Shown here: positions 4,068 to 52,087 of the stretch, piece by piece
Position numbering within the stretch: the stretch's first letter is position 1
How the letters are laid out: each line of letters begins with the position of its first letter
Source of the DNA: Lepidurus packardi
Taxonomy: Eukaryota; Arthropoda; Branchiopoda; Notostraca; Triopsidae
Reading direction: 5' to 3'
Length of the DNA stretch: 64,000 bases
Assembly (NCBI GenBank): GCA_023053545.1
Contig: JAKZAN010000002.1
Span: forward strand, 1,100,375-1,164,374
Translations under genes and position numbers: made by a program
The notes under the pieces: model-generated
Database searches by the model: none
Seen by the model: the letters and a program-made list of their open reading frames with translations, nothing else
Told to the model about the DNA's origin: nothing

Positions 4068-4241
4068 CCCTTAATAGCAACTATGTCTCTTTGATCCCCT
4101 TAGACTCCAAGGCGCTTTCAACCTAGTAGTCGCTCATCCAACATTTTCAACCGAGTTCTAGTCGAAATGCCCTGCCAGGGTGTTTCTGTCTTTGGAACTA
4201 GGATGGCTGCTTGAAAATGGCCGTCGGAAAGAAACCGTATG
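4068..4241 (+). repeat. 5S upstream flank, shared with the second 5S locus
   Basis: This stretch matches, in reverse complement, the sequence at 52088-52262 upstream of the intact 5S gene (shared blocks include TCTCTTTGATCC, TCCAACATTTTCAACCGAG and CCTGCCAGGGTGTTTCTGTC). It is therefore part of a duplicated 5S unit. Confidence 0.8.
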
Positions 4242-4295
4242 CCAACGGCCATACCACGCAGAATGTACCCAGACTCGTCAGCTCCTGGAAGTCAA
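4242..4295 (+). pseudogene. 5S rRNA gene, 5' half, interrupted by LINE copy A
   Basis: It starts with the 5S 5' terminus GCCAACGGCCATACCACGC and runs to GGAAGTCAA, where the LINE begins. The remaining part of the gene is at 11328-11407. The break lies in the box A region of the internal control region, so this gene should not be transcribed as 5S. The intact minus-strand gene at 51968-52087 shows the uninterrupted order. Confidence 0.9.
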
Positions 4296-4659
4296 TTCCG
4301 ATCGCTCCCGAGCAAAAGTCATTTTCTAGTTCCTAGTTCATCACGAGAGTTAGAATCCCGTGATAGCGTGTAGTTTTTTTTTGGACTTGATTATTAAAAA
4401 GGGAAAACGCATTCAAGCACAGTTTCCTTACGACCGCGACCGCTTCCATTGCATTAGTTAAAGGGTAAGCGACGTATTAGTGTATAATTATTATTTTTTT
4501 TTTCTATATATAGATATTATTTGCCTTGTTGTGTGAGTGTGCGTATTTCCCATTTTCCCCTTTCTTCCCAGCAAGCTGTCATTAAGCAAATCCCAGACAC
4601 ATAATCCAGATAGTCTGGTTAAATTCCTCCCCCCTTTGTTTCCCTTTTTTCTCTCAGTT

Positions 4660-4795
4660 TCGAACTCACACTGGAGGTATTGAACACGTGGCTATACCCT
4701 GTTTGTTCTTGTCTTCCCGTTTGAACTCACGGGTGGTAGCGAGCACGTGGCCATACCCTTTTTGTTCTTTTCTTCCTGTTTGAACTCACACAGGT
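4660..4795 (+). repeat. Tandem repeat in the LINE copy A 5' UTR, about 60-bp period
   Basis: The block TTTGAACTCAC recurs at about 4660, 4721 and 4780. The block GARCACGTGGCNATACCC recurs at 4682 and 4741, so the period is about 60 bp with a little over two units. Each full unit contains an E-box-like CACGTG. Copy B has only one related block near 12855. Repeated 5' UTR units are known promoter modules in some L1-like elements; a promoter role here is inference. Confidence 0.6.
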
Positions 4796-4932
4796 GAAGT
4801 CGGGTATTCTCATATTCGTGCCTTTTTCCTTGTTTGTTTTCAAAACAGATACCCCGCCTTGTTTTTCTGTTCAACCTATATTTCAAATTTAATTTTGATA
4901 CTTTTCCTTCTACTTTCTATAAAAAAAAAAAA

Positions 4933-6240
4933 ATGGATAACACGGGAATTGGTCCAAAATTATCTCGATTGAACACGGCGTTCATTAATCTAGCACAGTT
5001 ACCGTGGAACGACCTACCATCCCATTCTTTTTTTCATCAAAAATTAATGAAGGAGTACGGAGTGAAAGAAGAAGAGCTAGCGTGCATAGATATTGACAAG
5101 TACAACAAGACATGGAACTTAAAATTCAAAACCGAAAAGGCACTGGAAAAGTTTGTTGAAACATGCGGAGGCGAGATCCAACTAACGCACAACAACGGAA
5201 CGCTGTACTACTTGCCAGTAGGCACAACCGAGAGTAAGCACAGAATACTTTTACTATCCAAACTTCCATTCGAAATAGAAGAGAAGCATATCGTAGAAAC
5301 ACTGAAAGAATATGGAAAGGTCCTAAAATTTCGCAGAGAATTCTTCACTGGAAGCAATATCTTCAAAGTAGCTAGGGAGAGAGCCACCGTACAGTTTTTA
5401 ATGACTAAAGACGTGCCTCCTTTCATAAACATCTTAGGCACATCTGTACAAGTTCAGTACCCTGGACAGAAAGAGCAGTGTAATTACTGCAAAACTCTGG
5501 GCCATAACCGTAATGGATGCCCTAAGCTAGCAACCAAGCAAAAACGATTCGAGGAGGATTTTCCGCCTTTAGTCGTTAACAGTGCTAACGCAGATTGTCA
5601 AACAGAGGGAGAAGGGTATAGTACATTGGCAACTCTTGAACCCCTTGGCAAAGTAGTAGAAGAGAATGAAGGGTCGAAGGACCAGCCAACAGGGGTAGAC
5701 ACAGATTTGAATACTCTGGAGGTAGAACCTCCGGTAACACAAGACATGGAGGTGCAGGAGAGCACAACCAAAGTACCGGATTCAGAAGCGGTTTTGATAA
5801 CAGAAGAGGAGGAGGCCGAGGAGCCAGCGCTAGAAGTGCAGAATCGTTTCCAGTTACTAGGAACGCTAGGAGAAGAAGAAGACGTGAGACTCGGGGAAAG
5901 CGAAGGGTTTTTGATAGCAGAGCAGCAAAATGCAAACGAAAGCGAGGAAATCACAAGCCTGACGACACTAAGCCGGACACCCAAAGCAACTGACCAACAA
6001 GTTAGGGAAAAATCAGGACTCAACCTTCGTTTAAAAAAAATGCGTACAGATGAATACGAAAATTTAAAAACCCCAGTGAAATCGATGGCCAGTCAAGAAG
6101 TTGAAAAGGAAGGAAATGAAGAAATACAGAAAGAACCAATTTTACCAGTAAAACCATCAACAAGTGCAAAAAAGAAGAACGTACCAGCTACCAAAGCACA
6201 GAGAACTGCTGCGACGAGGGCAGGCAGAACCCCACGCTAA
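4933..6240 (+). CDS. LINE copy A ORF1 protein (zinc-knuckle RNA-binding)
   Basis: The protein has 435 residues. The start is the first ATG after an A-rich tract, at MDNTGIGPKL, and it matches the start in copy B. An RRM-like segment (HRILLLSKLPFEIEEKHI) lies near residue 101. A single CCHC knuckle (CNYCKTLGHNRNGC) lies near residues 182-195. An acidic, low-complexity middle and a basic C-terminus follow. ORF1 proteins of this type bind element RNA and act in the ribonucleoprotein. The stop is separated by one base from the ORF2 ATG (TAA-T-ATG), suggesting coupled translation. The frame has no disruption. Confidence 0.9.
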   Translation: MDNTGIGPKLSRLNTAFINLAQLPWNDLPSHSFFHQKLMKEYGVKEEELACIDIDKYNKTWNLKFKTEKALEKFVETCGGEIQLTHNNGTLYYLPVGTTESKHRILLLSKLPFEIEEKHIVETLKEYGKVLKFRREFFTGSNIFKVARERATVQFLMTKDVPPFINILGTSVQVQYPGQKEQCNYCKTLGHNRNGCPKLATKQKRFEEDFPPLVVNSANADCQTEGEGYSTLATLEPLGKVVEENEGSKDQPTGVDTDLNTLEVEPPVTQDMEVQESTTKVPDSEAVLITEEEEAEEPALEVQNRFQLLGTLGEEEDVRLGESEGFLIAEQQNANESEEITSLTTLSRTPKATDQQVREKSGLNLRLKKMRTDEYENLKTPVKSMASQEVEKEGNEEIQKEPILPVKPSTSAKKKNVPATKAQRTAATRAGRTPR

Positions 6241-6241
6241 T

Positions 6242-9200
6242 ATGGAAGCTCTAAACGAAGAAATTAAAATATGTAGTTTAAATGTCAGAGGACTGAAACA
6301 ATCGATGAAACAAAAACTGATGACAAGCTTTATAGAACAGTATGAGCTAGATGTAGTGTGCCTTCAGGAACTCAATACGGATTTCAACCCAAATCCAGAT
6401 AGGTTCAATCTTATTTGTGATGTAGGACCTGGAAAACCAGGTATAGGTATTCTCTATAGAAGGGAATTCGAATTAAAAAACTTTAAAACCTCGACGACAG
6501 GTAGAATCTTACAAGCAGTCTTTCAAAACTTTATCGTATTAAATGTCTATGGCCACCCAGGGAATCACCCAGCAAACGAGAGAAATGAGCTTTTTAACAT
6601 ATTTTTACCAATTTACCTTAAAAATGAAAACATACACACAGTCTTAGTGGGCGATTTTAACGTAGTAATAGACGGAAAAGACGCTACTACCCCGCGCATG
6701 AACGAGTTCCTAAAACGCGCAATAAAAGGCTTTGAACTAGTCGACGCATATCGCCTTCAACACGCGCTAACAACAGACTTTACCTTTCTACACCCCAAAG
6801 GAGGAGCTAGACTCGACAGAATTTATTTGGGCAAAGGTTTGAAAAATAATTTTCATAAAATAGAACACACAACTTTCGTGGGATCTGACCACGAAGCGGT
6901 CATAGTAACACTCAAAGGCGCCCTTGAAGACATAACAAGAGAAGAAATAAGACGAAGACCCAATAGATGGCACCTAAACCAAGATATATTAAACGACCCG
7001 CGCTTCGCCATACACGTTAAGGAACTAGCTCAAGAGTTTACTACCCGATTAGATCCAAAGAAACCATACATAAGGTACTGGAATAATTTTAAGAAAAACA
7101 TTCAGTTATTTGCCAGGAGCCTCCAGCAAGAAATAAAAATTGAGCAGAAAACACTAAGATCCTTTTACAAGAGCTGTTTCGATGAAGCAAGCGAGAACGT
7201 CAGTGCCAATGCAGGGAGTTGGGGGGATTTTGTATACTATAGACAGAAATTGAGAGAAATGGAAATACGCCAAATACAAGATGCATTATACAAGAGCCGA
7301 ATAGATAGTATACAAAAGGGTGAACAAGCGAGTCTGACCCACGTACTGGAAGAAAAAAGGAAAGCTAACCAGAGCATTTTTAAAAGCTTAAGAAGACCAG
7401 ATGGGGAACTCCTTCACAAGGAAGAGGACATGAGAGCTTTATTCGAAAACCATTTCCAAACAATCTACACACCGGAAGATAGAGTAGAAGAGACGGAAGT
7501 GTTTGGAACATCCTTTCTAGAGATGGCAATATCTCACGATGACGAGGAAAATTTAAAGCAAACGATAACGTGGAGAGAAGTTCGATCAGCAATCAATTTA
7601 TTACCCCGCAATAAGTCCCCAGGGCCGGATGGGCTGAGTGTTGAATTTTATGCAAGTTTTTCAGAGATTTTGTCCCCACTACTGGTTCTTTTAGCCAATG
7701 AGGTTTTCCAAGGGGGACTCAAAGAGGGTGACAATGACAGCCTAGTAAAACTTTTAGCCAAAGGAGGAGATAAAAAGAACATACAAAACTGGAGACAGAT
7801 CGCACTACTAAACTCAGACTACAAAATTTTATCAAAATTGCTCGCTGAGCGAATTAAGCCATATCTAACGCAGGTAATCGTTCCGCATCAAACTGGGGGG
7901 GTACCAGGGAGGAACATTACGGACAACTTAGCCAAAATTAGGAATGCAATAGAGTTTGCAACAGAAAGGTACAGACAATATCCAGAAAACTTTAGTAATT
8001 ATAAAACCAATTCAATTGCGAGACTAGGCGTCATCGCACTAGATCTCGAGAAAGCATACGATAGGGTGAACAGAAACTATTTATTTAAAATCATGAAACT
8101 GTACGGCTTCCCAGACTATATCATAAATAGTATACAAGGACTCTACGAACATGCGAGATGCAAAATCTTAATCAATAAAATATACGCCAAGCCGGTAAAC
8201 TTGAATAGAGGAGTAAGACAAGGGTGTCCTTTATCTCTTTATTTATTTAGTATATATATAAACCCTTTATTAACCAAGTTAGCACAGGAATTGCACGGGT
8301 TTGATATCATAGGCGAAAAACAGATAGTAATGGGTTACGTGGATGATCTAACAATACTAACAGCTAAAGAGACGGATTTTAAACTTATAGAGGAAACCCT
8401 GGAAGCCTTTTGTAACTCATCGGGAGCAAAAATTAACTGGAAGAAATCAGGCATTCTTCCTTTTGGAGCATGGCAGGGGAGAGAGGACTGGGCCATGCCG
8501 AAATTGAAAACTAAACTAGATTTGCAGATTCTAGGGATTAGCTTCAAACAAAAGATGTCCGAAACAATCTCCAATAACTCAAAAATTATGGCACAATACG
8601 CAACCAAGAAATTCTACGTCTGGAAAACAAGATTCTTATCCATTCATCAAAAAGTAAGCTACGTCAACCTTTATATTTTACCACTTCTTTATCACCTGGC
8701 AAGAATTTTACCAATTACAAAGCCCTGCATAAAACTGATGAAGCAAAAAGTGGGGACCTTTCTATGGGGCGGTAGGCTGGAGAGATTAGCCTATGAAGAA
8801 ATCTTAAACGCACGTACAGACGGGGGACTGGGCCTCGTGGACCTAGAGAGCCAGTGTAGAAGCTTCCAGATGCAGAAACTTTGGAATGACTCGCAATCAA
8901 CCGACAGAGCTACGAAAAGAATTTTAACGTATTTTACAGCTATACCATGGCGTAAAATATACCAAACACCAAACGGGCCAAAAGCGGAAGTCATACCCAT
9001 GTCATTAAAAGACGCGGTCACAACTATGGTTGGTCTAGGGCATTTTTTAAAATGCGACCAAGCTTTCCCAAGAAAAGAAGTGTATCAATTTTTAACGGCA
9101 AAGAAATTAAGAACACCCAAGATTGTAACTAAATACGCAGACAAAGATTACCCAACGATATGGAAAAACCTTACCAGTCAATTTTTAACTCCGGAAGTTA

Positions 9201-9610
9201 AAAGTCATGTATTTTATCAGGTGCACGACATTCACCCTACCGCGGAGAGATTAAAAAGATGTAGACAATCTGTGACGGACGTATGCGACCAATGCCAGTG
9301 CAAAGAGGATATTTATCACACGTTTTTGTGCAAAAAACTTCAAACAGCCAATGATTGGGCAAAGAGTGTCCTCACTAGGGTACTACCGAATACACCCATG
9401 TCGAGAGCATGCATGCTCGATTTCCAGGCGACCGGAATGGAGAACCACCAAGTGGGTGTGTGGTTTATAGCCGAGTACACATACCACCTGTGGAAAGCCA
9501 GAAAAAAAGGTGATGGTGCAGTAGCCGAAATAAGAGCTAGAATGAAACATCGTTTAGAAACGCAAAGGAAGATACAACCAGCGCTAGCAACACTTGGCAA
9601 CATATTTTAG
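6242..9610 (+). CDS. LINE copy A ORF2 protein (endonuclease and reverse transcriptase)
   Basis: The protein has 1122 residues. I chose the start just after the ORF1 stop, which copy B shares. The N-terminal endonuclease shows the metal and catalytic motifs LNVRG (about 13), QE (about 42), VGDFN (about 136) and SDHE (about 215). Reverse transcriptase follows, with NKSPGPDGLS, NWRQIALLN (about 516), ALDLEKAYDRV, GVRQGCPLS and GYVDDLTI (about 698). A CxxC-H-C knuckle (CDQCQCKEDIYHTFLC) lies near 1014. It would nick the 5S gene and prime reverse transcription there. Two oddities: the usual NWRPI is NWRQI here but NWRPI in copy B, and CPLSLYLF replaces the commoner CPLSP form in both copies. The frame is otherwise open. 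Confidence 0.93.
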   Translation: MEALNEEIKICSLNVRGLKQSMKQKLMTSFIEQYELDVVCLQELNTDFNPNPDRFNLICDVGPGKPGIGILYRREFELKNFKTSTTGRILQAVFQNFIVLNVYGHPGNHPANERNELFNIFLPIYLKNENIHTVLVGDFNVVIDGKDATTPRMNEFLKRAIKGFELVDAYRLQHALTTDFTFLHPKGGARLDRIYLGKGLKNNFHKIEHTTFVGSDHEAVIVTLKGALEDITREEIRRRPNRWHLNQDILNDPRFAIHVKELAQEFTTRLDPKKPYIRYWNNFKKNIQLFARSLQQEIKIEQKTLRSFYKSCFDEASENVSANAGSWGDFVYYRQKLREMEIRQIQDALYKSRIDSIQKGEQASLTHVLEEKRKANQSIFKSLRRPDGELLHKEEDMRALFENHFQTIYTPEDRVEETEVFGTSFLEMAISHDDEENLKQTITWREVRSAINLLPRNKSPGPDGLSVEFYASFSEILSPLLVLLANEVFQGGLKEGDNDSLVKLLAKGGDKKNIQNWRQIALLNSDYKILSKLLAERIKPYLTQVIVPHQTGGVPGRNITDNLAKIRNAIEFATERYRQYPENFSNYKTNSIARLGVIALDLEKAYDRVNRNYLFKIMKLYGFPDYIINSIQGLYEHARCKILINKIYAKPVNLNRGVRQGCPLSLYLFSIYINPLLTKLAQELHGFDIIGEKQIVMGYVDDLTILTAKETDFKLIEETLEAFCNSSGAKINWKKSGILPFGAWQGREDWAMPKLKTKLDLQILGISFKQKMSETISNNSKIMAQYATKKFYVWKTRFLSIHQKVSYVNLYILPLLYHLARILPITKPCIKLMKQKVGTFLWGGRLERLAYEEILNARTDGGLGLVDLESQCRSFQMQKLWNDSQSTDRATKRILTYFTAIPWRKIYQTPNGPKAEVIPMSLKDAVTTMVGLGHFLKCDQAFPRKEVYQFLTAKKLRTPKIVTKYADKDYPTIWKNLTSQFLTPEVKSHVFYQVHDIHPTAERLKRCRQSVTDVCDQCQCKEDIYHTFLCKKLQTANDWAKSVLTRVLPNTPMSRACMLDFQATGMENHQVGVWFIAEYTYHLWKARKKGDGAVAEIRARMKHRLETQRKIQPALATLGNIF

Positions 9611-9665
9611 AATAAAAAACACGAAATTTAACTAAAAAGAAACGTAGAATCTCTTGTAAACGTAA

Positions 9666-9709
<44 letters not shown>

Positions 9710-9803
9710 CCTTCACAGCATCAAAAAGAAAATTGAAGAAGGAAAACCTACATAAATAGAAAGAAAAGATAAGAAAGAAATAAAAATAAAGAAAGAAAAT
9801 AAG

Positions 9804-9836
<33 letters not shown>

Positions 9837-9884
9837 TGAGAAACGTAGTTTCCAAAGGAACTGTCTGAGTGCTAATAAGTATTA

Positions 9885-9939
<55 letters not shown>

Positions 9940-10199
9940 AACGACAGCTAGAAACTTAGGCTCCTGAGAAACTGTCTGAATCTCGAGAGAATATTTTGAA
10001 TACCCAAGAAACTATATCCCCATTCTGCTCATTAAAAAGAAAGTAGTACACCAAACTTTGTTAAACCCTATTTACTAACTAATGAAAATTATCCGCAAAC
10101 AAAACAAAATATAAGTAACGTAGGAGTAACGTATTAGTAACGTAGGATCCAAATAAACTTAATGATCCAAATCTGATTGCTAATAAGCTGCTTGCTTAC

Positions 10200-10241
<42 letters not shown>

Positions 10242-11327
10242 GACAGTTAGAAACATATGCTCCCGAGAAACTGTTTCAATCCCGACAGGATATTTAGAAT
10301 ACCCAAGAAACTATATCCCCATTCTCCTCATTAAAAAGAAAGTAGAACCCAACTTTGTTAAAATCCTATTTGATAACTAAAGAAAACCTATCCCATACTA
10401 AAAAAAAAAAAAAAAAAAAAAGGACTACTACTATTAACAAAATACACATACAAAAGAAGAAAGAATTGCATACTAACCAAACGAAAACTAACAAAATATA
10501 ACACCAAACTGAAAGAACACTAACATTTAACAAAAAAAAAAAAATCTAACATTAACTGAACAGTTTATTAGGCGAAAATTGTCTAAACCATCAAAACATC
10601 ATCAGCAAATGCAATCATTGCAACAAATTAAGGGAGAGGGTAATTTTGGGACACCAATTGTTAGAAGTACCTTACCACAAAGTCAGCTTGGTGCGCGTCA
10701 TCGACATAGCGAACAAACTCACCAAGGAAGAAAATGTCATGAAAGTCATGAAAGGATAACCACCAAATATTGCAGGAATACAAACTCCTGGAACGATAAT
10801 TACGTCGGAGCTGATTAAAACACAATGTGGAAGTTTTACACTATAAGAGACACGAATTTGGATACCCAAAGCAAAATCATCCAACCACAAAGTCAAATTA
10901 TACTTGACATTGCCAGAACGAACATACTCATCAAAGATTAAGAAGACCAAACAACACCCGAACAGGAGATAGCGACGAAAGTTGAGGACTACCATGACGA
11001 AGTTAGACAACAAATGAAACCGTACAAGTTGTCTGGAGTACAATCATAGAGACACCAAACCCAGAACCCTGTCACCAAACCCAGAACACACTCATCGGAG
11101 TTGTCAATAAAACAAAGCAGGCAACAAATGTTGTCCCATGGGCAAGCTCAAATTCAGTGCCAAGTAGTTCGAAATATTAAGCAACCGTGCATTCCCTGTA
11201 TCACAGAAAGTAACCTGTAGCGTGATAATCTCTTTAATTCCAACTATTTGTAACCCTCGCAAATGCAAATTATTCGGCTCAAAAATGCAATACAATTGTT
11301 TTAAAATTTAAAAAAAAAAAAAAAAAA
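9611..11327 (+). other. LINE copy A 3' UTR with internal poly-A tracts and duplicated units
   Basis: The UTR contains several A-runs of 20 or more bases. A segment starting CGACAGCTAGAAAC (about 9943) recurs as CGACAGTTAGAAAC (about 10240), both leading into GAATACCCAAGAAACTATAT, so the 3' UTR holds a diverged tandem duplication punctuated by poly-A. The last part, 10560-11310, is shared with copy B. The tail joins 5S sequence at 11328. Confidence 0.8.
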
Positions 11328-11407
11328 CTCCTGGAAGTCAAGCTGCGTCGGGCCCGGTCAGTACTTGGATGGGTGACCGCCTGGGAACACCGGGTGCTGT
11401 TGGCTTT
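11328..11407 (+). pseudogene. 5S rRNA gene, 3' half, after LINE copy A
   Basis: The segment begins with the duplicated target CTCCTGGAAGTCAA and continues GCTGCGTCGGGCCCGGTCAG through GGATGGGTGACCGCCTGGGA to GTGCTGTTGGCTTTTT, the 5S 3' end and T-run terminator. The intermediate element and box C regions remain, but the 5' part is 7 kb away at 4242-4295. Confidence 0.9.
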
Positions 11408-12043
11408 TTCGTCTTCTCAGACGGAAATATTTTTTTTTGTCGCGGGCAGCATTGCCAGCCAATTCCAAGACTTCTGCAACCAAGTACTCTTTTATACACT
11501 GAAATTGTAGACTTTTCTTTCTGAGCCGTTAAAGTGCGTTCCACTTGCTAAAATATTGGTGCAATGTTGCTGTATTGGTGCAATATTGTTTGCACTCAGT
11601 CTATATATTATACACTGAGTCCTGCCTGTGCAACTGCACGGATCGTGTTCCACTTACAGGATGCGCACTGGAAAGTGCAAAACAATGCTGCCTTTTCTGG
11701 ACATGATTCGGAGAAGGTATCTGAAAAGCAAGCTCGAAATACAGTCTACGAAAGAAAACATCTGCTGTCATTTTACAGCCTTCTAACACTGGATCCTCGG
11801 CCGGTACATCGAGATCGGAAACTAGTCACCCATCGAGATCGGAAACTGGTCACCCATCCAAGTTTCAAACATTGCGCTGTTATCCATGAATCATAATGCA
11901 AGAGATCTTTTGCTCGTTTTCTCGTCGATTTATTTTCCTACTGTTTGTATTGCGAGGGTGGAATAAATAATAGCCAGGTTTATCGACATGTAAGATTTTG
12001 CACTGTAAGACTTAGAAAAGTTCCATGTAGTAGTATTTATGCC
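11408..12043 (+). repeat. 5S downstream spacer, copy of the spacer at 51333-51967
   Basis: This stretch is nearly identical in reverse complement to 51333-51967. It includes a short direct repeat of CATCGAGATCGGAAACT (near 11807 and 11828) and the H2A-derived segment at 11437-11489. The match ends exactly where the assembly gap lies in the other copy. Confidence 0.85.
11437..11489 (-). pseudogene. Histone H2A gene fragment inside the 5S spacer
   Basis: These 53 bases match the minus strand of the H2A coding region at 49114-49166 with one visible difference, covering the peptide [17 protein letters not shown]. The fragment is too short to encode a histone. The same fragment sits in the other 5S spacer at 51885-51937. 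Confidence 0.85.
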
Positions 12044-12413
12044 AATTGGGACGCGAGCTGACTAAGCCCGACCCCGGTGCTGAGTTGGCCGTGGAAACAC
12101 ACCCTAGGGTGTTGCTGAATATAGTTGACAACAGTAGTTCGTCTTTATAACCAGTCACCCCAAACTAACTAAAAGAAAGTTTATTAGCTCATCACATCAT
12201 TTTTAGTCCACACTCATTTATAAAAAAAAAAGCAAGTAAACTACTAGAATCTGAGGATTTCAGGCTGTACTTTTCACTTTGCTTTGGAACATTCCTCGCA
12301 TTACCGCGGTAGGTGCTTATCTCGCGGTAGGTGAGATAACGCACCGCGTCTCAGCTCAGGCATAACCGCAACACCAAGTGCGATTCTTAGTTGGCTAATG
12401 ATCTACATTAGAT
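12044..12413. other. Spacer before the second 5S gene, nothing recognised
   Basis: No coding frame or RNA gene is seen. It does not match the upstream flank of the other 5S genes, so the unit was rearranged here. Confidence 0.5.
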
Positions 12414-12468
12414 GCCAACGGCCATACCACGCAGAATGTACCCAGACTCGTCAGCTCCTGGAAGTCAA
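12414..12468 (+). pseudogene. 5S rRNA gene, 5' half, interrupted by LINE copy B
   Basis: It has the same 5' terminus and the same break after GGAAGTCAA as the gene at 4242. The 3' half is at 18980-19058. The insertion point is identical to copy A. Confidence 0.9.
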
Positions 12469-12943
12469 TTCCGATCGCTCCCGAGCAAAAGTCATTTCTA
12501 GTACATATATTGTCACAAGAGTTAAACCCCTGTGATTGCGTGCGTTTTTGTTTTGTTGTGGTTTATTAATTATATAAGAGAATAGTGCTTTTTGGATACG
12601 GTACTAATTAAAAGTTACCTTTTTCTGTTTTCTTTGTTTGTTTTCGTCGCTTGGCGAAGGCGTGCCCGATTCTCAAGTAATTGCGGCGGCTTCCTTTGCA
12701 TAATTGAAAGGTAAGCGACACATAAGTGTATAATTTTGTTATTTTCGTGCAGTTTTTGCGTGTATTTGCCAATTTTTCCCACTTTTCCCAACAAAATTGG
12801 CAGTATACAGATTCCAGATACGTCTGGTTAACTCCTTTTCCGCTCTTTCCTCAGTTTCGAAACTCACACACGTGAGGCGAACATCCCCCATTTCCAGCTT
12901 TTTCTGGTTTTGTGTCTTTTTGAGCCAAGGAAAAAAAAAAAAT

Positions 12944-14260
12944 ATGGATTCCACGGGAATTGGCCAAAAGCTAACTCGTTTGAACACTGCGTTCATTAAT
13001 TTGGCTCAATTGCCGTGGAACGACTTACCGTCTCACTCTTTTTTTCATCAAAAATTAATGAAAGAGTATGGCGTCATGGAAGAGGACTTAGCTTGTATTG
13101 ACATTGACAAGCACAATAAAACGTGGAACCTAAAATTCAAAAATGAAAGGGCACTACAAAAATTCATTGAAGCTTGTGGAGGAGAGATCCAACTTGTCCA
13201 CAACAACGGCACAAAATATGACTTGCCAGTAAGCACCACAGAGTGAAAGCATAGGATTCTCTTACTATCAAAACTGCCCTTTGAAATCGGGGAGGCACAA
13301 GTGCTAGACGCACTTAAGGAATACGGGCGAATCATAAAATTTCGTCGTGAAATCTTCACAGGAACTAACATTTTCAAAGTGGCAAGGGAAAGGGCCACTG
13401 TTCAATTCCTAATGACAAAGGATGTACCTCCCTTTGTAGATATTTTGGGCGCATCCGTACAGATCCAATACCCTGGGCAGAAAGAAATGTGCAACTACTG
13501 CAAAAGCCTAGGTCACAACCGAAATGCATGCCCGAAGCTAGCTTCGAAGCAATAAAGATTCTAGGAGGACTTCCCTCCATTGATCGCTGACAGTTCTGGC
13601 GCAGGGAGAACAACAGAGGAGGAGGTTCGGAGTGCAGTAGCAAACCCGGAGCCCCTCGGAGACACACCAGAGGTTGGTCAGGGTCCGACACGTCGACCAA
13701 TGGAGCGGGGTGACACGGGGAATAATGCAGAGTTAGAAACTCAGATAGAGCAGGAGATGGAGGTACGGGAGTGTGTCATAGAAGTACCAGTCTCAGAGGC
13801 TTCCATCTTGACAGAAGAGGTGAATACTGAGGAACTAGCAGCTTTAGAGGTCCAGAACCGTTTTGAAGTTTTAGGGACACTAGGCGTAGAGGACGAAGGG
13901 TCCAAGAAAACCGAAGAAAATCTGATAGTACAACAAGAAAATACAAATAAAACTGAGAAAACCCAAAGCCTGGAAACACCAAACCAGGCACCAAAAACAA
14001 CTAAGCTGCAGCAAGCTAGGGAAAAATCAGGACACACCTTACGCCTGAAAAAAATGCGCACAGGTGAATATGAAAATTTGAATACGCCAGAGAAATCGAA
14101 GGAAGCACAGGATAATCCAATCGAAAGCAGGGAAAGAACTGAAGAGGTACAGAAAGAACCGATGTTACCCGTACCCCAATCAACAAAGGAAAAGTGTACG
14201 CCAATAACAACTAGATCGCAGAGAGCAGCGTCGAAAAGGGCAGGTAAATCCCCACGCTAA
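12944..14260 (+). pseudogene. LINE copy B ORF1, three nonsense codons
   Basis: It starts MDSTGIGQKLTRLN and aligns with copy A ORF1 along its whole length, including the knuckle CNYCKSLGHNRNAC. In-frame stops lie near 13244 (TGA), 13553 (TAA) and 13562 (TAG); the frame is otherwise kept to the natural stop at 14258-14260. The ORF2 ATG follows after one base, as in copy A. Confidence 0.9.
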
Positions 14261-14261
14261 A

Positions 14262-17200
14262 ATGCAAAGTTTAAATGAAGAGATTAAGTTATGTAGTCTA
14301 AATATAAGAGGTCTAAAACAACCGATGAAGCAGAAATTGTGGACAAACTTTATTGAAAAATACGAAATAGATATAGTCTGCCTTCAGGAATTCAATATAG
14401 ATTTCAACCCAAATCCTGATAAATTTGATCTCATTTGTGATTTAGGACCTGGAAAACCAGGTATAGGTATTCTCTATAAAAAAGAGCTTGAATTAAAGAA
14501 TTTTAAAACATCAATGACAGGTAGAATCTTACAAGTTTTCTTTAAAAACTTTATCGTGTTAAATATCTATGGCCACCCAGGTAATCACCCAGCAGACGAG
14601 AGAAATGAGCTTTTTAATATATTTTTACCAATTTATCTTAAAAATGAAAACACACATACAGTATTAGTGGGCGATTTTAACGTTGTAATAGACGTGAAAG
14701 ACGCTACCACACCGCGCATGAACGAGTTCCTAAAACGCGCAATAAAAGGCTTTGAACTAGTCGACGCATATCGCCTTCAACACGCGCTAACAACAGACTT
14801 TACCTTTCTACACCCCAAAGGAGGAGCTAGACTCGACAGAATTTATTTGGGCAAAGGTTTGAAAAATAATTTTCATAAAATAGAACACACAACTTTCGTG
14901 GGATCTGACCACGAAGCGGTCATAGTAACACTCAAAGGCGCCCTTGAAGACATAACAAGAGAAGAAATAAGACGAAGACCCAATAGATGGCACCTAAACC
15001 AAGATATATTAAACGACCCGCGCTTCGCCATACACGTTAAGGAACTAGCTCAAGAGTTTACTACCCGATTAGATCCAAAGAAACCATACATAAGGTACTG
15101 GAATAATTTTAAGAAAAACATTCAGTTATTTGCCAGGAGCCTCCAGCAAGAAATAAAAATTGAGCAGAAAACACTAAGATCCTTTTACAAGAGCTGTTTC
15201 GATGAAGCAAGCGAGAACGTCAGTGCCAATGCAGGGAGTTGGGGGGATTTTGTATACTATAGACAGAAATTGAGAGAAATGGAAATACGCCAAATACAAG
15301 ATGCATTATACAAGAGCCGAATAGATAGTATACAAAAGGGTGAACAAGCGAGTCTGACCCACGTACTGGAAGAAAAAAGGAAAGCTAACCAGAGCATTTT
15401 TAAAAGCTTAAGAAGACCAGATGGGGAACTCCTTCACAAGGAAGAGGACATGAGAGCTTTATTCGAAAACCATTTCCAAACAATCTACACACCGGAAGAT
15501 AGAGTAGAAGAGACGGAAGTGTTTGGAACATCCTTTCTAGAGATGGCAATATCTCACGATGACGAGGAAAATTTAAAGCAAACGATAACGTGGAGAGAAG
15601 TTCGATCAGCAATCAATTTATTACCCCGCAATAAGTCCCCAGGGCCGGATGGGCTGAGTGTTGAATTTTATACAAGTTTTTCAGAGATTTTGTCCCCACT
15701 ACTGGTTCTTTTAGCCAATGAGGTTTTCCAAGGGGGACTCAAAGAGGGTGACAATGACAGCCTAGTAAAACTTTTAGCCAAAGGAGAAGATAAAAAGAAC
15801 ATACAAAACTGGAGACCGATCGCACTACTAAACTCAGACTACAAAATTTTTATCAAAATTGCTCGCTGAGCGAATTAAGCCATATCTAACGCAGGTAATC
15901 GTTCCGCATCAAACTGGGGGGGTACCAGGGAGGAACATTACGGACAACTTAGCCAAAATTAGGAATGCAATAGAGTTTGCAACAGAAAGGTACAGACAAT
16001 ATCCAGAAAACTTTAGTAATTATAAAACCAATTCAATTGCGAGACTAGGCGTCATCGCACTAGATCTCGAGAAAGCATACGATAGGGTGAACAGAAACTA
16101 TTTATTTAAAATCATGAAACTGTACGGCTTCCCAGACTATATCATAAATAGTATACAAGGACTCTACGAACATGCGAGATGCAAAATCTTAATCAATAAA
16201 ATATACGCCAAGCCGGTAAACTTGAATAGAGGAGTAAGACAAGGGTGTCCTTTATCTCTTTATTTATTTAGTATATATATAAACCCTTTATTAACCAAGT
16301 TAGCACAGGAATTGCACGGGTTTGATATCATAGGCGAAAAACAGATAGTAATGGGTTACGTGGATGATCTAACAATACTAACAGCTAAAGAGACGGATTT
16401 TAAACTTATAGAGGAAACCCTGGAAGCCTTTTGTAACTCATCGGGAGCAAAAATTAACTGGAAGAAATCAGGCATTCTTCCTTTTGGAGCATGGCAGGGG
16501 AGAGAGGACTGGGCCATGCCGAAATTGAAAACTAAACTAGATTTGCAGATTCTAGGGATTAGCTTCAAACAAAAGATGTCCGAAACAATCTCCAATAACT
16601 CAAAAATTATGGCACAATACGCAACCAAGAAATTCTACGTCTGGAAAACAAGATTCTTATCCATTCATCAAAAAGTAAGCTACGTCAACCTTTATATTTT
16701 ACCACTTTTTTATCACCTGGCAAGAATTTTACCAATTACAAAGCCCTGCATAAAACTGATGAAGCAAAAAGTGGGGACCTTTCTATGGGGCGGTAGGCTG
16801 GAGAGATTAGCCTATGAAGAAATCTTAAACGCACGTACAGACGGGGGACTGGGCCTCGTGGACCTAGAGAGCCATTAAAAGACGCGGTCACAACTATGGT
16901 TGGTCTAGGACATTTTTTAAAATGCGACCAAGCTTTCCCAAGAAAAGAAGTGTATCAATTTTTAACGGCAAAGAAATTAAGAACACCCAAGATTGTAACT
17001 AAATACGCAGACAAAGATTACCCAACGATATGGAAAAACCTTACCAGTCAAGTTTTAACTCCGGAAGTTAAAAGTCATGTATTTTATCAGGTGCACGACA
17101 TTCACCCTACCGCGGAGAGATTAAAAAGATGTAGACAATCTGTGACGGACGTATGCGACCAATGCCAGTGCAAAGAGGATAATTATCACACATTTTTGTG

Positions 17201-17480
17201 CAAAAAACTTCAAACAGCCAATGATTGGGCAAAGAGTGTCCTCACTCGGGTACTACCGAATACACCCATGTCGAGAGCATGCATGCTCGATTTCCAGACG
17301 ACCGGAATGGAGAACCACCAAGTGGGTGTGTGGTTTATAGCCGAGTACACATACCACCTGTGGAAAGCCAGAAAAAAAGGTGATGGTGCAGTAGCCGAAA
17401 TAAGAGCTAGAATGAAACATCGTTTAGAAATGCAAAGGAAGATACAACCAGCGCTAGTAACACTTGGCAACATATTTTAG
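14262..17480 (+). pseudogene. LINE copy B ORF2, frameshifted and internally deleted
   Basis: It begins MQSLNEEIKLCSLNIRGLKQ. The endonuclease residues are present, and the RT retains NWRPI and GYVDD. One extra T near 15850 shifts the frame between DYKI and LAERIKPYL. At 16874 about 150 bp present in copy A (8854-9004) are missing, with CA microhomology at the joint, which shifts the frame again before VGLGHF. The C-terminal knuckle CDQCQCKEDNYHTFLC is retained. Confidence 0.92.
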
Positions 17481-17610
17481 AATAAAAACACGAAATGTGA
17501 CTAAAAAGAAACGTAGAACCCCTTGTAAACGTAAAAAAAAAAAAAAAAAAAAAAAAAAATTTAGAAACGTAGTTTCCAAAGGAACTGTCTGAGTGCTAAT
17601 AAGTATTTTG

Positions 17611-17702
<92 letters not shown>

Positions 17703-18942
17703 ACAGTTAGAAACATAGGCTCCCGAGAAATTGTTTGAATCCCGAGAGGATATTTTGAATACCCAAGAAACTATATCCCCATTCTTCTCATTAAAAAGAA
17801 AGTAGAACACCCAACTTTGTTAAATCCTATTTACTAACTAAAGAAAATTATCCTCAAAAAAAAAAAAAAAAAAAGAAAAAAATATTAGTAACGTAGGATC
17901 CAAATAAACTGAATGATCCAAATCTGATTGCTAATAAGTTGCTTGCTTACCAAAAAAAATTTACCGAGAAAAACTTACCGAGAAACTGTGAATCCCGATA
18001 TTTAGAATACCCAAGGAACTATATCCCCATTCTCCTCATTAAAAAGAAAGTAGAACCCCAACTTTGTTAAATCCTATTTGATAACTAAAGAAAACCTATC
18101 CCATACTCAAAAAAAAAAAAAAACTAACTAAACATACTAACTAAACGGAAACTAACAAAATATAACACCAAACTGAAAGAACACTAACATTTAACAAGAA
18201 AAAAAAAAAAAAAATCTAACATTAACTGAATAGTTTATTAGACGAAAATTGTCTAAACCATCAAAACATCATCAGCAAATGCAATCATTGCAACAAATTA
18301 AAGGAGAGGGTAATTTTGGAACACCAATTTTTAGAATTACCTTACCACAAAGTCAGCTTGGTGCGCGCCATCGACATAGCGAACAAACTCACCAAGGAAG
18401 AAAATGTCATGAAGGTCATGAAAGGATAACCACCAAATATTGCGGGAATACAAACTCCTGGAACGTGGAAGTTTTACACTATAAGAGACACGAATTTGGA
18501 TACCCAAAGCAAAATCATCCAACCACAAAGTCAAATTATACTTGACATTGCCAGAACAAACATACTCATCAAAGATTAAGAAGACCAAACAACACCCGAA
18601 CAGGAGATAGCGACGAAAGTTGAGGACTACCATGACGAAGTTAGACAACAAATGAAGCCGTACAAGTTGTCTGGAGCACAATCATAGAGGCACCAAACCC
18701 AGAACCCTGTCACCAAACCCAGAACACACTCATCGGAGTTGTCAATAAAACAAAGCAGGCAACAAATGTTGTCCCATGGGCAAGCTCAAATTCAGTGCCA
18801 AGTAGTTCGAAATATTAAGCAACCGTGCATTCCCTGTATCCCAGAAAGTAGCATGTAGCGTGATAATCTCTTTAATTCCAACTATTTGTAACCCTCGCAA
18901 ATGCAAAATTATTTGGCTCACAATTGCAATACAATTGTTTAA

Positions 18943-18979
<37 letters not shown>
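17481..18979 (+). other. LINE copy B 3' UTR with (TA)n and poly-A tracts
   Basis: It corresponds to the copy A 3' UTR with length changes in every homopolymer. A (TA)n microsatellite lies at about 17614-17672 and is absent from copy A. The duplicated units recur near 17700 and 17970. The tail ends in poly-A at the 5S junction. Confidence 0.8.
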
Positions 18980-18982
<3 letters not shown>

Positions 18983-19058
18983 CTGGAAGTCAAGCTGTGT
19001 CGGGCCCGGTCAGTACTTGGATGGGTGACCGCCTGGGAACACCGGGTGCTGTTGGCTT
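18980..19058 (+). pseudogene. 5S rRNA gene, 3' half, after LINE copy B
   Basis: It begins with CTCCTGGAAGTCAA and continues to GTGCTGTTGGCTTTTT. One base differs from the copy A half (GCTGTGTCGGG against GCTGCGTCGGG). The downstream sequence is unlike the other 5S spacers. Confidence 0.9.
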
Positions 19059-31932: not shown

Positions 31933-32791
31933 GGGATACTAACAGCTTTATCTAATCGTATCGGTGATGTTTGTTTTCTATGAATAATTTCGTGGTGGAT
32001 AGTACTAGTGGATTACAGATTTCTGCCGTTTTTCAACAAAATAGCTTATTTGATTCACATTCTTTAGCATTTTTATCTTATATTATTATTGTAGCAGCTA
32101 TAACTAAAAGAACTCTGATTCCGTTTTCAGCTTGGTTGCCAGCAGCTATAGCTGCTCCAACCCCTGTGTCAGCATTAGTACACTCATCTACTTTAGTAAC
32201 AGCAGGTGTCTATTTATTGATTCGATTTTATGATATATTAGTAGGAGCTTTAATATTAGATATTTTGTTGTGTTTGTCAGCTAGAAATATATTTATGCCG
32301 GGTATGGCAGCTCTATATGAATACGATTTTAAAAAAAAAATTATTGCTTTGTCAACTTTAAGCCAGCTCGGGTAATAATATTTTCTTTAGCAGCTGGGTT
32401 TCCTTTGTTAGCTTTTTTTTCATTTATTAATACATGCTTTATTTAAGGCTCTGTTATTTTTATGTGCAGGGGTGTTTATCCACCAAGTAGGAGAGTGGCA
32501 ATATATTCGTAAAGTAGGCGGTATTAGTTTTAGATTTACACTTACTAGAAGTTATTTTAATATAGCAAATTTAGCATTATGTGGAATACCTTTTTTAGCA
32601 GGATTTTATTCTAAAGATGCTATTATTCAATCAGCTTCAATAAATAATATAAAAGCTTTATTTTAGTCTTACTAATTTTTTCTACAGTTTTAACTGCTAT
32701 TTATTCACTTCGATTAGCTTATTTTTCTATGTTAATATTTCCGAGATTTAGTGTTTTATCAAATTTTTTGGATGAGGATTTTAATATTTAA
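31933..32791 (+). pseudogene. nad5: Numt: nad5 fragment
   Basis: With the invertebrate mitochondrial code (TGA as Trp), the reading includes [15 protein letters not shown] and [20 protein letters not shown], followed by [18 protein letters not shown]. This is NADH dehydrogenase subunit 5, missing its N-terminal third and C-terminus. Frame breaks occur near 32063, 32280-32310 and 32370-32440. Its strand is opposite to that of the neighbouring mitochondrial genes, as in the ancestral arthropod order. Confidence 0.92.
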
Positions 32792-41330: not shown

Positions 41331-44300
41331 AAGTCCCGTTTCGATCCTAGATTCAAATTTTCCCAGGATGGGCTATTTTTGAAATCTCTAACGAAGGTTA
41401 AGTTGTCCACATCCTGAACTTTAAACAGTAGTTGTTGCGGGAATTTGAAAGAAGATTTAAAAAAAATTAATATGGAGTTAGAAGCTGGCAATACCAAGTA
41501 GTTTAGCTTCCACGTCTATTTGGAAAGTTATTTTCTAACTGTTCTACATATTACTTGATGAATCCTGAATTTTATTAGCATTAATTAATTTAATCGAATC
41601 ACTTTTGATTTATTTGAATTAATTTACAACAAGTTATAACCATTGAATTAGACAATGTAACTGAAAATAGTATGTGCCAAATGAGCTAATTATAGTTAAA
41701 TTCGCCCATAGAACGTTTCTAATCAACTAGAAGTACTTAATATTAGAGGGGAAAACGAAGACGTACCGAATAGACATGCAATACGGGTTTGTATCAGTAG
41801 AGCCAACATTATTTCAGAGTGAAATTAAGAGTGAATATTAAGCACAGTCCAGTATGAAACGTCCAGTATGAAACGGCAGCAATTTTACTCACATTGAAGT
41901 CTACACAGCGAATATAATTTTTTACCTATGGTGTATTTTTAATTGCATTGCGAGCCAGGTATAAACCGGGCAAAAAAAATTTAGTTCAGACTCATCATTT
42001 GCTCCCCTCCACGGAAATCTTTAGTAAAAGGCGAAAGATTTATCCGTTTGTTGAAGGGAAGCCAGAGTTAACTCAAACAGTTTCTACTACGAACTACACT
42101 GCTGCCTTCGATTTATACATCAATGAGTACCTATCTAAAAATTTACTCTTGTTATAAATTTTACTTAAAAGCAAATAGAATAACTCTTTTACATTTAAAT
42201 AGTTTAGATATGGCAAAATCCTATTCACAACTCAGATTATAATTTAACCGTTCAACTGGCTCTTAAATTAGAATGAATGGCTACCGATCTCGTACACACT
42301 TGTTGGCCATTATAAGGTTCGTCATGCACCGCACGGTGACACCTAGGGGAGAAAATGTAAACTTCTTCTCCAATATTCGCGTTATAATTTCAAACGGACA
42401 GCATTAACAGTATATATAGAATTGCTACAATGTATGTGTTGATAGTTTATGGACACTATATAAATGGATTTCTTGATTGATTATGGATATTATAATAGTT
42501 TCATATAGATATTCAATAGACATTCAAAGCAGAATATTGTCAAAAATAGCCCAAGCTGCACCGATCCTCAAAAGTCTGATTTCATTCCTTTCATCTTGGA
42601 TTTTATTATCAGGCCCACCTTCCCCTCCGTTTTTTGTGACTCCTTAAACGTCCATATAGCCTACACTCGGGCTTGTCTTTTCGCTTTAACAATCAAACTG
42701 TCAGTCGATTCCTTCGATTCACATTTCAGTTTGGATGACACGTATTCCATTCTGTCTCGCATTGTAAAGAAAACATTGGGCGGAGTAAATGGGCTAATTT
42801 TCTCAACAAAGCAAAAACGTCCACACTAGAATAAACATGACGTTTAGGACAACCGTCTAGTGTAGTGCCGACTCATTCAATCTTGAGTTGGTTTTGTTTG
42901 CTTTGGAGTTATTTGAATTTACTTGAGTTACTTGCAATTTATTTGTTTTAATTTTATTTATTTTGTTTCGCTCCAGGTATGCTTGGGTTTATTTTGCATT
43001 CAGTAACTTGTTTGCTTTCGTATTATTTGAATTAACTTAAATTACTCTCAATCTGCAGCTTCAACTAATTGTCAACTAATTGACAAGATTTTGCTACAGT
43101 CTCAACTGTTCCATAAATGACAGAGCAACTTTTTCACATCACAGTTAAGTTAGCTTAGGTTAAGTTAGATTAAGTTAAATAAGGGTAGGACTCCCCCCCT
43201 CCTTCCCTCAAGAACGTAGTTCTCAAACTCCATTCCCCTCCCATGCTCCCGAAGCGCATGTTTTTTAAGTAAAGGGTGAGATCGCCAGGTAGAAGCATGT
43301 ACTGGTTGAAAACACGGAAACATCTCCCGAAATGCGTCAGTTAGTTATGTGGTGCAGTTTACTTGATTTACGCTCTACAATCCGCGTGTTTTTTGCCCAG
43401 CAGTAAAAACAAAGATCAAAGAAAGTTCGCAACTGACTCTCGAAAACCATATATTTGCGTTCTTCGTTTCTTTAATCAAAAGGTGGAATTGGAGAGCTAG
43501 CTTGTAAATACGTGCTTTATAAAGACTATCGATCCTCAATTACTGCAATAAAGAACAAAGCTGTATCTCCAATGGAATCCAAGAAGCTGAGCCTAAAAGA
43601 CCAGAGAATAACTGCCAAACCCCCCAAAAAGATCCAAGAATCGGTCATATCACATTTATTGATCGACATGGGACAGCTGAATGAGTGGCTATCTTTCATT
43701 AGGGCCTCCACAACGGTATAGGACTCAATTACTTATTACAAATACCCCATGTAAGCGTTTTTATGCCCGTTTATATGCAGTAGTTGAGCTTCGATTAGAA
43801 ACGTCGCCTTCGCAGCCACCACTGTCACCATCTCCAGATTCGTCTAGTTTCATGACTTGGGTGCGTCTTCCCTTCGGACACGATCAGATTACGTCGGATG
43901 GTCCATCCCCTTCCTGAACTTCGGCTATCTGCATCCTCGGCATTGCTGCTTTACATATAGGCGTTGACCGTTTCGAAATCGAATTGGATCTGAAATTAAA
44001 TGGAGCACCGGGATTTCTCAGCAAGCCAATCACCGACCAAGCCAATCACCCAGCAAGCCCATACAACACACGACGCAATCCGACGTTAAATTGAACGGTA
44101 GCACGTTTCACAGTATGTAGGTTTCAAACCTTTATAGTGTGTAGATAGTATTCTGTGCCTATGACGAATGCCCGAAGCAGGAGAAGAGGGAGAAGAATGG
44201 AGCGACTTTTCTTTTTTTCGAAAGTGGAGAAAAGGAAGGAATTCCCCCAGAAAACAAAAGAAGCTAAATGGGCACCCCTTCGACCTTGAGATACTGATAA

Positions 44301-47762: not shown

Positions 47763-48297
47763 CATTTCCTTTCAGCACACAAATGTCGATACTATATTTG
47801 GCTATTTTTATTTGCTTCATATGTATCGTATCTTCGTGAACAACAATCAATACAATGACATCTTGGTATACGCATTACTAACGCGTTCTGTTTTGGGCAA
47901 ACAGTCCCCATTAAGCCCTGATTCTTCAGGGGCTGAGCATTTTCAAAGATAGACGCGTGTTCAATCTCGATTTTTCCCTTGTAGATGATCGACTATCATT
48001 TGCAACTGTTCAAAAATCTACGCCTTGAAGGAACACGATCACGAATGGATGACACAGGCCGAAGGAATGCTATGAGTCCCGGCCTGACCCGCTCTTCGGC
48101 CTAACCCGTCCACCAACAACGCTTTTCGGGTTCTCAGACATGACGAAACTCGGGAGTAAAGTAGCGTACGGAATAGTCAAATGTGTGTGTATTCAAAATG
48201 TCTCCAGAGTCGATATTTAAAACAGCAACCTTAAAATTATCTGTTCGGAAAGACATAAGTAAAGCAAGTAGTTTGAACTTTCATCAAGAAATTGGTT
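47763..48297. other. Intergenic before the histone cluster
   Basis: Nothing recognised apart from sequence leading into the H2B 3' end. Confidence 0.4.
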
Positions 48298-48313
48298 GGC
48301 CCTGAAAAGGGCC
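48298..48313 (-). terminator. Histone 3' stem-loop of H2B
   Basis: GGCCCTTTTCAGGGCC on the minus strand, 29 bp beyond the H2B stop, is the canonical replication-dependent histone mRNA processing hairpin. Confidence 0.95.
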
Positions 48314-48341
48314 GTTGGGTTTTTCTTCCAGGCGAAAGCTC

Positions 48342-51967: not shown

Positions 51968-52087
51968 AAGCAAACAGCACCCGGTGTTCCCAGGCGGTCA
52001 CCCATCCAAGTACTGACCGGGCCAGACGCAGCTTGACTTCCAGGAGCTGACGAGTCTGGGTACATTCTGCGTGGTATGGCCGTTGGC
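51968..52087 (-). rRNA. 5S rRNA, uninterrupted
   Basis: The minus strand reads GCCAACGGCCATACCACGC through CTCCTGGAAGTCAAGCTGCG, CAGTACTTGGATGGGTGACC and GTGCTGTTTGC to a T-run, about 120 nt. The LINE target CTCCTGGAAGTCAA/GCTG is present once and unbroken, so this is an empty site. Two bases differ from the interrupted genes (TCTGGCCC for TCGGGCCC; TTTGC for TTGGC). The second weakens terminal-stem pairing, so function is likely but not certain. Confidence 0.92.

Follow-up and report, generated by a model that had tools for sequence, protein, structure and literature searches.

Why do two copies of one non-LTR retrotransposon lie after the same base of two 5S rRNA genes within a single 64-kb stretch of DNA (the window herein), and does the element choose this site or was one interrupted gene multiplied? 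From the junctions, flanks and proteins described below, we consider it very probable that the element is a non-LTR retrotransposon of the L1/Tx1 kind, with two ORFs, an APE endonuclease and a poly(A) tail, and that it inserts specifically at a single site of the 5S rRNA gene.

Target site and element copies in the window

The 14-mer CTCCTGGAAGTCAA, which corresponds to positions 42-55 of the 119-nt 5S rRNA gene, has five exact occurrences in the window: four on the plus strand, one on each side of both element copies, and one on the minus strand within an intact 5S gene that is matched by Rfam RF00001 at 93.7 bits (Table 1). At up to 2 mismatches, 0.56 occurrences are expected by chance in the window, and five were reached in 0 of 100 shuffles. 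Both copies are inserted directly 3′ of gene base 55, read in the direction of the gene, begin with TTCCGATCGCTCCCG (window positions 4296 and 12469) and carry the 14-bp duplication on each side. The earlier note had described a shared insertion base about 55 nt into the gene, an identical duplication at both copies and a third 5S gene with an unbroken site, and each of these observations held, with all of the 14-mers exact and both left halves ending at position 55.

Table 1 Features of the two inserted element copies and the 5S rRNA genes in the window
Feature	Positions	Strand	Basis or detail
5S left half (positions 1-55), broken by copy 1	4241..4295	+	sequence comparison with gene
Left target-site duplication, copy 1, CTCCTGGAAGTCAA	4282..4295	+	gene positions 42-55
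Full-length copy 1 of the element (subfamily A)	4296..11327	+	7032 bp including poly(A)
ORF1, copy 1, 435 aa	4933..6240	+	CCHC knuckle residues 183-196
ORF2, copy 1, 1122 aa	6242..9610	+	ATG one base past ORF1 stop
APE-type endonuclease, Exo_endo_phos	6272..6892	+	Pfam; ORF2 residues 11-217
Reverse transcriptase, RVT_1	7772..8458	+	Pfam; ORF2 residues 511-739; YVDDL 699-703
3′ UTR, copy 1	9611..11309	+	several internal poly(A) tracts
3′ poly(A), copy 1	11310..11327	+	18 nt
5S right half after copy 1, from position 42	11328..11404	+	right duplication 11328-11341
5S left half (positions 1-55), broken by copy 2	12414..12468	+	left duplication 12455-12468
Element copy 2, B 5′ part and A 3′ part	12469..18979	+	6511 bp; ORFs broken
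5S right half after copy 2, from position 42	18980..19056	+	right duplication 18980-18993
Intact 5S rRNA gene	51969..52087	-	Rfam RF00001; unbroken target 52033-52046

These had been taken for two independent full-length copies. Copy 1 is intact as claimed, with both ORFs present at 435 and 1122 aa; copy 2 is not, as its ORF1 is broken and its ORF2 is both frame-shifted and internally deleted. When compared in 250-base windows, the two copies are 61-83% identical over window positions 4296-6545 and 98-100% identical over 6796-9545. The latter identity arises because copy 2 is a mosaic that combines subfamily B with subfamily A. The claim thus stands for separate insertions and fails for independence of sequence throughout.

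Junctions across the genome

We surveyed a 108.6-Mb tadpole-shrimp genome assembly and tabulated the flanks of the element, as the earlier note had proposed. The scans for junctions covered the site itself, and 5′ ends were sought genome-wide by element sequence. Each of the 21 5′ ends found in this way is preceded by the left part of a 5S gene, broken off at position 55; 14 of them join it directly and the other 7 carry an additional T. Of 13 element 3′ ends found with the 3′ UTR as query, 11 run into the duplication and 5S sequence, and the possibility that most copies lie outside 5S genes failed on these two counts. The two 3′ ends found elsewhere are one whose own 5′ end is in a 5S gene and whose 3′ UTR is duplicated (C2:2610318) and one that follows an assembly gap (C4:2209967). 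Seen from the gene, every exact 5S left half not followed by G runs into the element (17/17 genome-wide), and every exact right half not preceded by G has an A before it (14/14). At 16 right-junction loci, found with a search pattern that already contained the junction, the 5S match begins at gene position 42 in all 16. The same assembly holds at least 103 uninterrupted 5S sites at up to 3 mismatches.

Twenty loci carry ORF2 at about 45% identity or more, in a grouping of our own from 41 of 47 rows with 41 of 405 candidates scored, and seven of these, fragments or diverged, lack a boundary shown in a 5S gene. ORF2 is open without stops in four copies that are 97-100% identical to the window ORF2, which suggests that the element has been active recently. 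Copies that seem young and intact, at least two subfamilies and some 100 unoccupied sites are all present in this one assembly.

Several insertions took place independently, as the flanks and subfamilies show: the 21 copies comprise eight or nine distinct combinations of the two (eight if L014 and L016 are counted once). The 21 5′ ends do not equal 21 events because the seven copies L023-L029 seem to descend from one old insertion by duplication: their flanks are common at 90-100% and by eye they have the same shortened body. One could extend this to all copies and propose that a single ancient 5S insertion was multiplied by array duplication and gene conversion, which would mimic repeated targeting. 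Some of the data have this character. L016 and L017 are 100% identical in flanks and element starts, L014 and L016 have 96 bp of flank in common at 99%, array-type flanks are 95-100% alike across 78-501 bp, and the tract of copy 2 that is nearly identical to copy 1 is the pattern expected of gene conversion. However, starts of subfamilies A and B, which differ by 24-30%, occur at one and the same base of near-identical array units, and conversely A copies of about 99% identity have flanks that show no BLAST similarity to each other (L010 versus L012, L015 and L016). At L045 we found an 83-bp, 5′-truncated element tail at the target, preceded by 5S positions 1-53, and at L037 an insert of 5S spacer sequence plus poly(A), cut 20 nt past the place of the spacer AATAAA. 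Full-length starts of subfamilies A, B and C together with these two inserts are incompatible with a single insertion, and we consider this alternative very improbable. For the window pair in particular, the earlier note had allowed for segmental duplication of one inserted unit. This was not borne out: the outer flanks of copies 1 and 2 differ, their first 2.25 kb are 17-39% apart, and their two subfamilies each recur at other 5S loci.

Encoded proteins and related elements

ORF2 gave Pfam matches over cut-off to Exo_endo_phos (3.7e-12) and RVT_1 (1.7e-32), placing an N-terminal APE-type endonuclease before the RT in a single ORF. Residues N14, E43, Y103, D138, N140, D192, S215 and H217 and the YVDDL sequence, which we take to be the catalytic motif residues, fall in aligned motifs. 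The closest solved relative is human L1 ORF2p (1.2e-63, residues 3-883), and this match and the Pfam domains confirm the L1-type endonuclease and RT assumed beforehand. The poly(A) 3′ tail, a hallmark of the L1/Tx1 type, is also present, with 18 nt in copy 1 and 32 nt in copy 2. Among solved relatives, R2 was matched at 7.1e-25, with an alignment within the RT part that begins no earlier than residue 434. Membership in the R2 group was ruled out by the APE domain, R2 similarity being confined to the RT. It is hardly credible, in our view, that the element is of the restriction-like-endonuclease type (R2/NeSL/Utopia) or Jockey-like as in Tribolium freemani, since ORF2 begins with an APE-type endonuclease and its L1 match is far ahead of that to R2. 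A Jockey-like LINE associated with 5S arrays has nonetheless been published for this beetle (PMC11202950). As described there, it resembles the shrimp element in being an arthropod LINE found with 5S rRNA genes, whereas it differs in being Jockey-like, in having copies outside 5S arrays as well and in that its description names no base-exact position in the gene (PMC11202950).

ORF1 yielded no Pfam match at E≤0.01 and no protein-database relative at E≤0.001 among 5718 candidates. A pairwise BLAST comparison with a thrips LINE protein gave 4e-5 across the CCHC of that protein. Of the RRM and CCHC knuckle looked for in an ORF1 of the L1/Tx1 type, a CCHC stands at residues 183-196, and residues 20-86 have a predicted beta-alpha-beta-beta-alpha-beta order, in a weak single-sequence model with a mean pLDDT of 39.

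In a 73-row RT tree whose rows include none named Tx1, Keno or Mutsu, the element groups with proteins P0001-P0003 and a long-branched Culex protein (SH-aLRT 88), apart from vertebrate L1. It is like vertebrate L1 ORF2p in its order of APE endonuclease and RT, its poly(A) and its alignable residues 3-883, yet it reaches only 1.2e-63 to human L1 versus 1e-170 or better for lizard and frog proteins, and it differs in its strict target and constant 14-bp duplication.

To our knowledge, base-exact insertion into 5S genes has so far been known mainly from a zebrafish element. This element, Mutsu, was reportedly described by Kojima and Fujiwara in 2004 and is a member of the APE-type Tx1 group. Two reports present Mutsu as a non-LTR retrotransposon in zebrafish 5S rRNA genes with two ORFs (PMC11202950, PMC3706591). 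Compared by these descriptions, the shrimp element is like Mutsu in both 5S insertion and two ORFs but differs in length (7.0 kb against about 5.5 kb) and in its host, a branchiopod crustacean. Base-exact 5S targeting by an L1-like element is now extended to a crustacean, and among the matches listed, which were titles and starts of abstracts outside subscription papers and Repbase, there was no other published 5S-specific LINE in a crustacean. Keno, Utopia (U2 snRNA) and R2 (28S) likewise use one site of a multicopy RNA gene (PMC4640811), but they have another target and, for Utopia and R2, a restriction-like endonuclease. A COI mitochondrial pseudogene in the assembly is 98% identical to Lepidurus (Notostraca), which puts the host close to this genus and confirms the arthropod host assumed in the earlier note.

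Route of insertion and the interrupted genes

Based on these junctions, the ORF2 protein would nick the bottom strand of the 5S gene between positions 41 and 42, and the freed 3′ end would serve as the primer for reverse transcription, which would start at the poly(A) tail. A second nick would presumably follow in the top strand, after position 55, and joining would leave the element in the gene's own orientation with a 14-bp duplication. Residence in a multicopy gene would let the element spread without hitting single-copy genes. The element also joins the candidates for RNA-templated insertion at a multicopy locus.

Alternatively, tethering to Pol III or TFIIIA, rather than sequence recognition by the endonuclease, could place the element in 5S genes. 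Going by the box positions, the insertion site presumably falls on the border of the 5S internal promoter, and yeast Ty1 and Ty3 are examples of LTR elements that make use of Pol III factors. Tethering usually yields a zone of insertion positions, whereas the junctions here, in scans that covered the site itself and, for 5′ ends, the whole genome, are exact to the base on both sides (left 21/21 at 55, right 16/16 at 42 with the junction-containing pattern). Moreover, target specificity has been described for Tx1 and R1, both APE-type groups (PMC4640811). We regard tethering as unlikely and infer that the endonuclease, not a chromatin factor, reads the 5S site. The element lends itself to comparisons of how APE-type endonucleases come to be sequence specific. 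An R2-style, HDV-like ribozyme at the 5′ end was rejected: window positions 4240-4940 gave no Rfam match at E≤1, and the folds of the first 125 nt of copy 1 and 122 nt of copy 2 do not surpass those of shuffled sequences (z 0.70 and 0.69).

Each insertion had been said to destroy a 5S gene. That holds for the gene product, which is lost; positions 42-119, however, are still contiguous on the 3′ side of every insert, since the duplication starts at position 42. The internal control region, which we take to span about gene positions 50-97, is therefore whole downstream of each insert. The element offers a direct test of insertion in a Pol III gene when the internal promoter is rebuilt downstream. 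A joint reading, which we put forward as a doubtful proposal, is that 5S specificity arose in an L1-like lineage of arthropods separately from its origin in fish Mutsu and that the cut made by this lineage spares the promoter. Interrupted genes might then retain TFIIIA binding, with Pol III transcription beginning within the poly(A) or close to it, and the machinery may also insert other polyadenylated RNA, as at L037.

Junctions of the element with 5S genes

Two copies of an L1-like non-LTR retrotransposon lie head to tail in the window, one in each of two 5S rRNA genes. In both, the element start TTCCGATCGCTCCCG immediately follows position 55 of the 119-nt gene, and the element ends in poly(A), after which the gene runs on from position 42. 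The 14-bp duplication CTCCTGGAAGTCAA, corresponding to gene positions 42-55, therefore flanks each copy on both sides. The same two junctions in both copies bear out the earlier note, which had placed them after one 5S base with a common duplication and had described a third gene with its site unbroken; this gene was also found (table). A run of N within 51112-51477, beside the intact gene, appears as X in translations and may be an assembly gap or a withheld stretch. Copy 1 (7032 bp) encodes ORF1 (435 aa) and ORF2 (1122 aa), the latter beginning one base past the ORF1 stop, and copy 2 (6511 bp) is broken.

Coordinates of the features
Feature	Position	Strand	Remark
Copy 1	4296-11327		
Copy 2	12469-18979		
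Third 5S gene	51969-52087	minus	target site unbroken
Open-ORF2 copies	copy 1, C2:2604576, C2:2574132, C4:2214605		5' end in 5S, 4/4
U5 spliceosomal RNA gene	41954-42070		93.7 bits
H2B-like ORF	48345-48731		read by eye
H3-like ORF	50000-50512		read by eye

When the element's first 25 bases were searched for in the whole assembly (108.56 Mb, 344 contigs), allowing ≤3 mismatches, 5' ends appeared at 21 places, while the reversed-sequence control gave 0 matches. All 21 were preceded by a 5S left half (gene positions 1-55) ending at position 55, 14 joined directly and 7 through a single extra T. An element-free scan for exact left halves not continuing with G returned 17 places, all of which continue with T and belong to the 21; the remaining four 5' ends carry a mismatch within the left half. 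In the mirror scan, A preceded all 14 exact right halves (positions 42-119) that lacked a preceding G, and a looser scan for an A-run plus right half gave 16 loci, with the 5S match beginning at position 42 in 16/16. The 3' UTR, used as a DNA query of the whole assembly, matched 21 stretches, namely 13 final 3' ends (the flanks of L049 match those of L050, and the flanks of L059 those of L060, so that either pair could be duplicates), one inner copy in a duplicated 3' UTR (L053) and seven internal pieces. A 5S right half follows 11 of the 13 final 3' ends; the two away from 5S are L052 (C2:2610318) and L054 (C4:2209967), the latter behind a run of N. Hence most copies located through element sequence lie in 5S genes; a majority outside 5S was the outcome that the earlier note had said would overturn its claim. 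With at least 103 uninterrupted sites (≤3 mismatches), the interrupted share counted by left halves is 21/124 5S genes in this assembly, a figure that collapsed arrays could shift. Eight extra right junctions (L035, L037-L039, L042-L045) have no left end among the 21.

Independence of insertions and probable recent movement

Copies 1 and 2 sit in neighbouring 5S units. Their origin by segmental duplication of one inserted 5S unit, the other refuting condition of the earlier note, is contradicted by their outer flanks, which are unlike beyond 5S-linked sequence, and by an identity of only 61-83% over window 4296-6545 (250-base windows). The identity rises to 95% at 6546-6795 and to 98-100% over 6796-9545, a deletion aside. 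Up to ~6800, copy 2 is matched at 92-100% by the copies at C5:12139301 and C9:26979; beyond it, these are 84-96% identical to either window copy, whereas copy 2 and copy 1 are 99-100% identical. By these alignments, copy 2 is a subfamily B element that has acquired subfamily A sequence, the type of copy 1, in place of its own 3' part, with the switch near copy-1 coordinate 6800. Such a mosaic could stem from gene conversion by the neighbour or from template switching.

Comparison over the 21 starts showed A copies ~99% alike in flanks without BLAST similarity (L010 versus L012, L015 and L016), and both A and B starts in like flanks. The 21 starts are not all separate events. L016 and L017 are identical, L014 and L016 have 96 bp of flank in common, and L023-L029 have common flanks (90-100% identity) with bodies that, by eye, diverge from the A type past ~0.5 kb. 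Grouped manually, the starts fall into eight or nine flank-subfamily combinations. By eye, L027 is without a segment bearing GGCGCCATTTA-type inverted ends that is present in the 5' UTR region of L023, L025 and L028; the segment is apparently a small DNA transposon and L027 its empty site.

Four copies carry an ORF2 that is open throughout, with zero stops and 97-100% identity to that of the window, which points to recent movement. Our ORF2 survey scored 41/405 candidates, with incomplete coverage of diverged copies. Manual grouping yielded 20 ORF2 loci, 13 of which have one or both boundaries in 5S; the other seven are fragments or diverged, with no 5S boundary shown. Another six rows, 26-28% identical, belong to other LINEs.

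Relationship to known elements

ORF2 matched Exo_endo_phos (46.9 bits, cut-off 24.5) and RVT_1 (113.2 bits, cut-off 29.6), with zf-RVT under its cut-off (19.6 against 27.5). Its best solved relative is human L1 ORF2p (1.2e-63, residues 3-883), and matches to R2 begin at residue 434 or later. YVDDL is present, as are the residues aligned with what we take to be the catalytic positions of the L1 endonuclease. In the protein database, 138 of 7997 scored candidates passed E≤0.001; the top one shows 26% identity over 92%. We built an RT tree with 73 rows, namely the window element plus 72 of 120 listed matches (P0001-P0060 and 12 named). There, ORF2 grouped (SH-aLRT 88) with database matches P0001-P0003 and a Culex protein on a long branch. 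Plant and oomycete rows lay apart from it, as did lizard and frog proteins whose matches to L1 reach 1e-170 or better. The window element's highest pairwise identity to any row was 33% (P0008). Since the tree is midpoint-rooted and includes no labelled Tx1, a clade name comes from architecture and target habit rather than from the tree. ORF1 carries a CCHC knuckle and, in pairwise comparison, weakly matches a thrips LINE protein (4e-5); a protein-database search found no ORF1 relatives at E≤0.001 among 5718 candidates.

In the literature, Tx1 and R1 are given as the target-specific groups of APE type (PMC4640811; on Tx1 also PMC3747384), and Mutsu is named alongside R2, Keno and Dewa (PMC3706591). 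Zebrafish Mutsu is described as a 5S-gene retrotransposon with two ORFs (PMC11202950), like the window element in both respects but ~5.5 kb long, compared with 7032 bp for copy 1. The literature matches listed include no crustacean case of a 5S-targeting LINE. Claiming ours as the first 5S LINE of an arthropod would overstate the case, because PMC11202950 reports a Jockey-like LINE in Tribolium freemani 5S arrays.

Proposed mechanism, odd inserts and neighbouring sequence

The junctions fit target-primed reverse transcription, in which the bottom strand would be nicked between gene positions 41 and 42, priming would occur on poly(A), and the top strand would be cut after position 55. We infer the nick order, and likewise that the ORF2 endonuclease reads the 5S site. 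The 5S internal control elements presumably lie at ~50-97 (vertebrate 5S numbering). Because the duplication keeps positions 42-119 contiguous downstream of each insert, the predicted internal control region is whole there. The suggestion that insertion destroys the 5S gene thus holds for the native start, which is lost, but not for positions 42-119, which stay together.

Three right-junction loci carry odd inserts. L045 holds an 83-bp tail between 5S positions 1-53 and 42-119, and L038 a 116-bp 5' UTR piece ending in an A-rich run, with GTCAGCTCCTGGGAGTCAA as the sole gene remnant to its left. At L037 (G000:C4:13466675-13469700), 5S spacer sequence is followed by poly(A) and the right half from position 42; the spacer sequence breaks off 20 nt past the point where the window's spacer has AATAAA (11962), a signal that is altered in L037, and neither a 5S left half nor element sequence was seen at the locus. 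L037 is possibly a 3'-transduced or trans-mobilised RNA. Judging from the odd inserts, insertion may use a poly(A) end that lacks the 3' UTR of the element. Separately, the 3' UTR at window 9667-10420 has several internal poly(A) tracts, the segments between which resemble one another, and L052 has 3' UTR sequence twice in tandem; the 3' UTR may lengthen through successive additions bounded by poly(A). At L040 (G000:C3), a second, more diverged right half from position 42 (2192-2269) follows the first at a distance of ~0.7 kb and may mark the 3' side of a further old insertion.

The assembly contains many cytochrome oxidase I pseudogenes. One, at C6:697216, was translated with the invertebrate mitochondrial code; the translation matches Lepidurus apus apus and L. 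couesii at 98% identity and Triops at 96-97%. If this pseudogene is native to the assembly, it makes the host a notostracan and most likely a Lepidurus. An ORF at window 31968-32372 resembles mitochondrial NADH dehydrogenase 5 by eye. COX1-family matches in long stop-free frames on C52, C214 and C43 suggest that these are bacterial contigs within the assembly. Lastly, histone-like ORFs and two histone 3' stem-loops adjoin the intact 5S gene (window 48273-52087), a possible histone-5S linkage.
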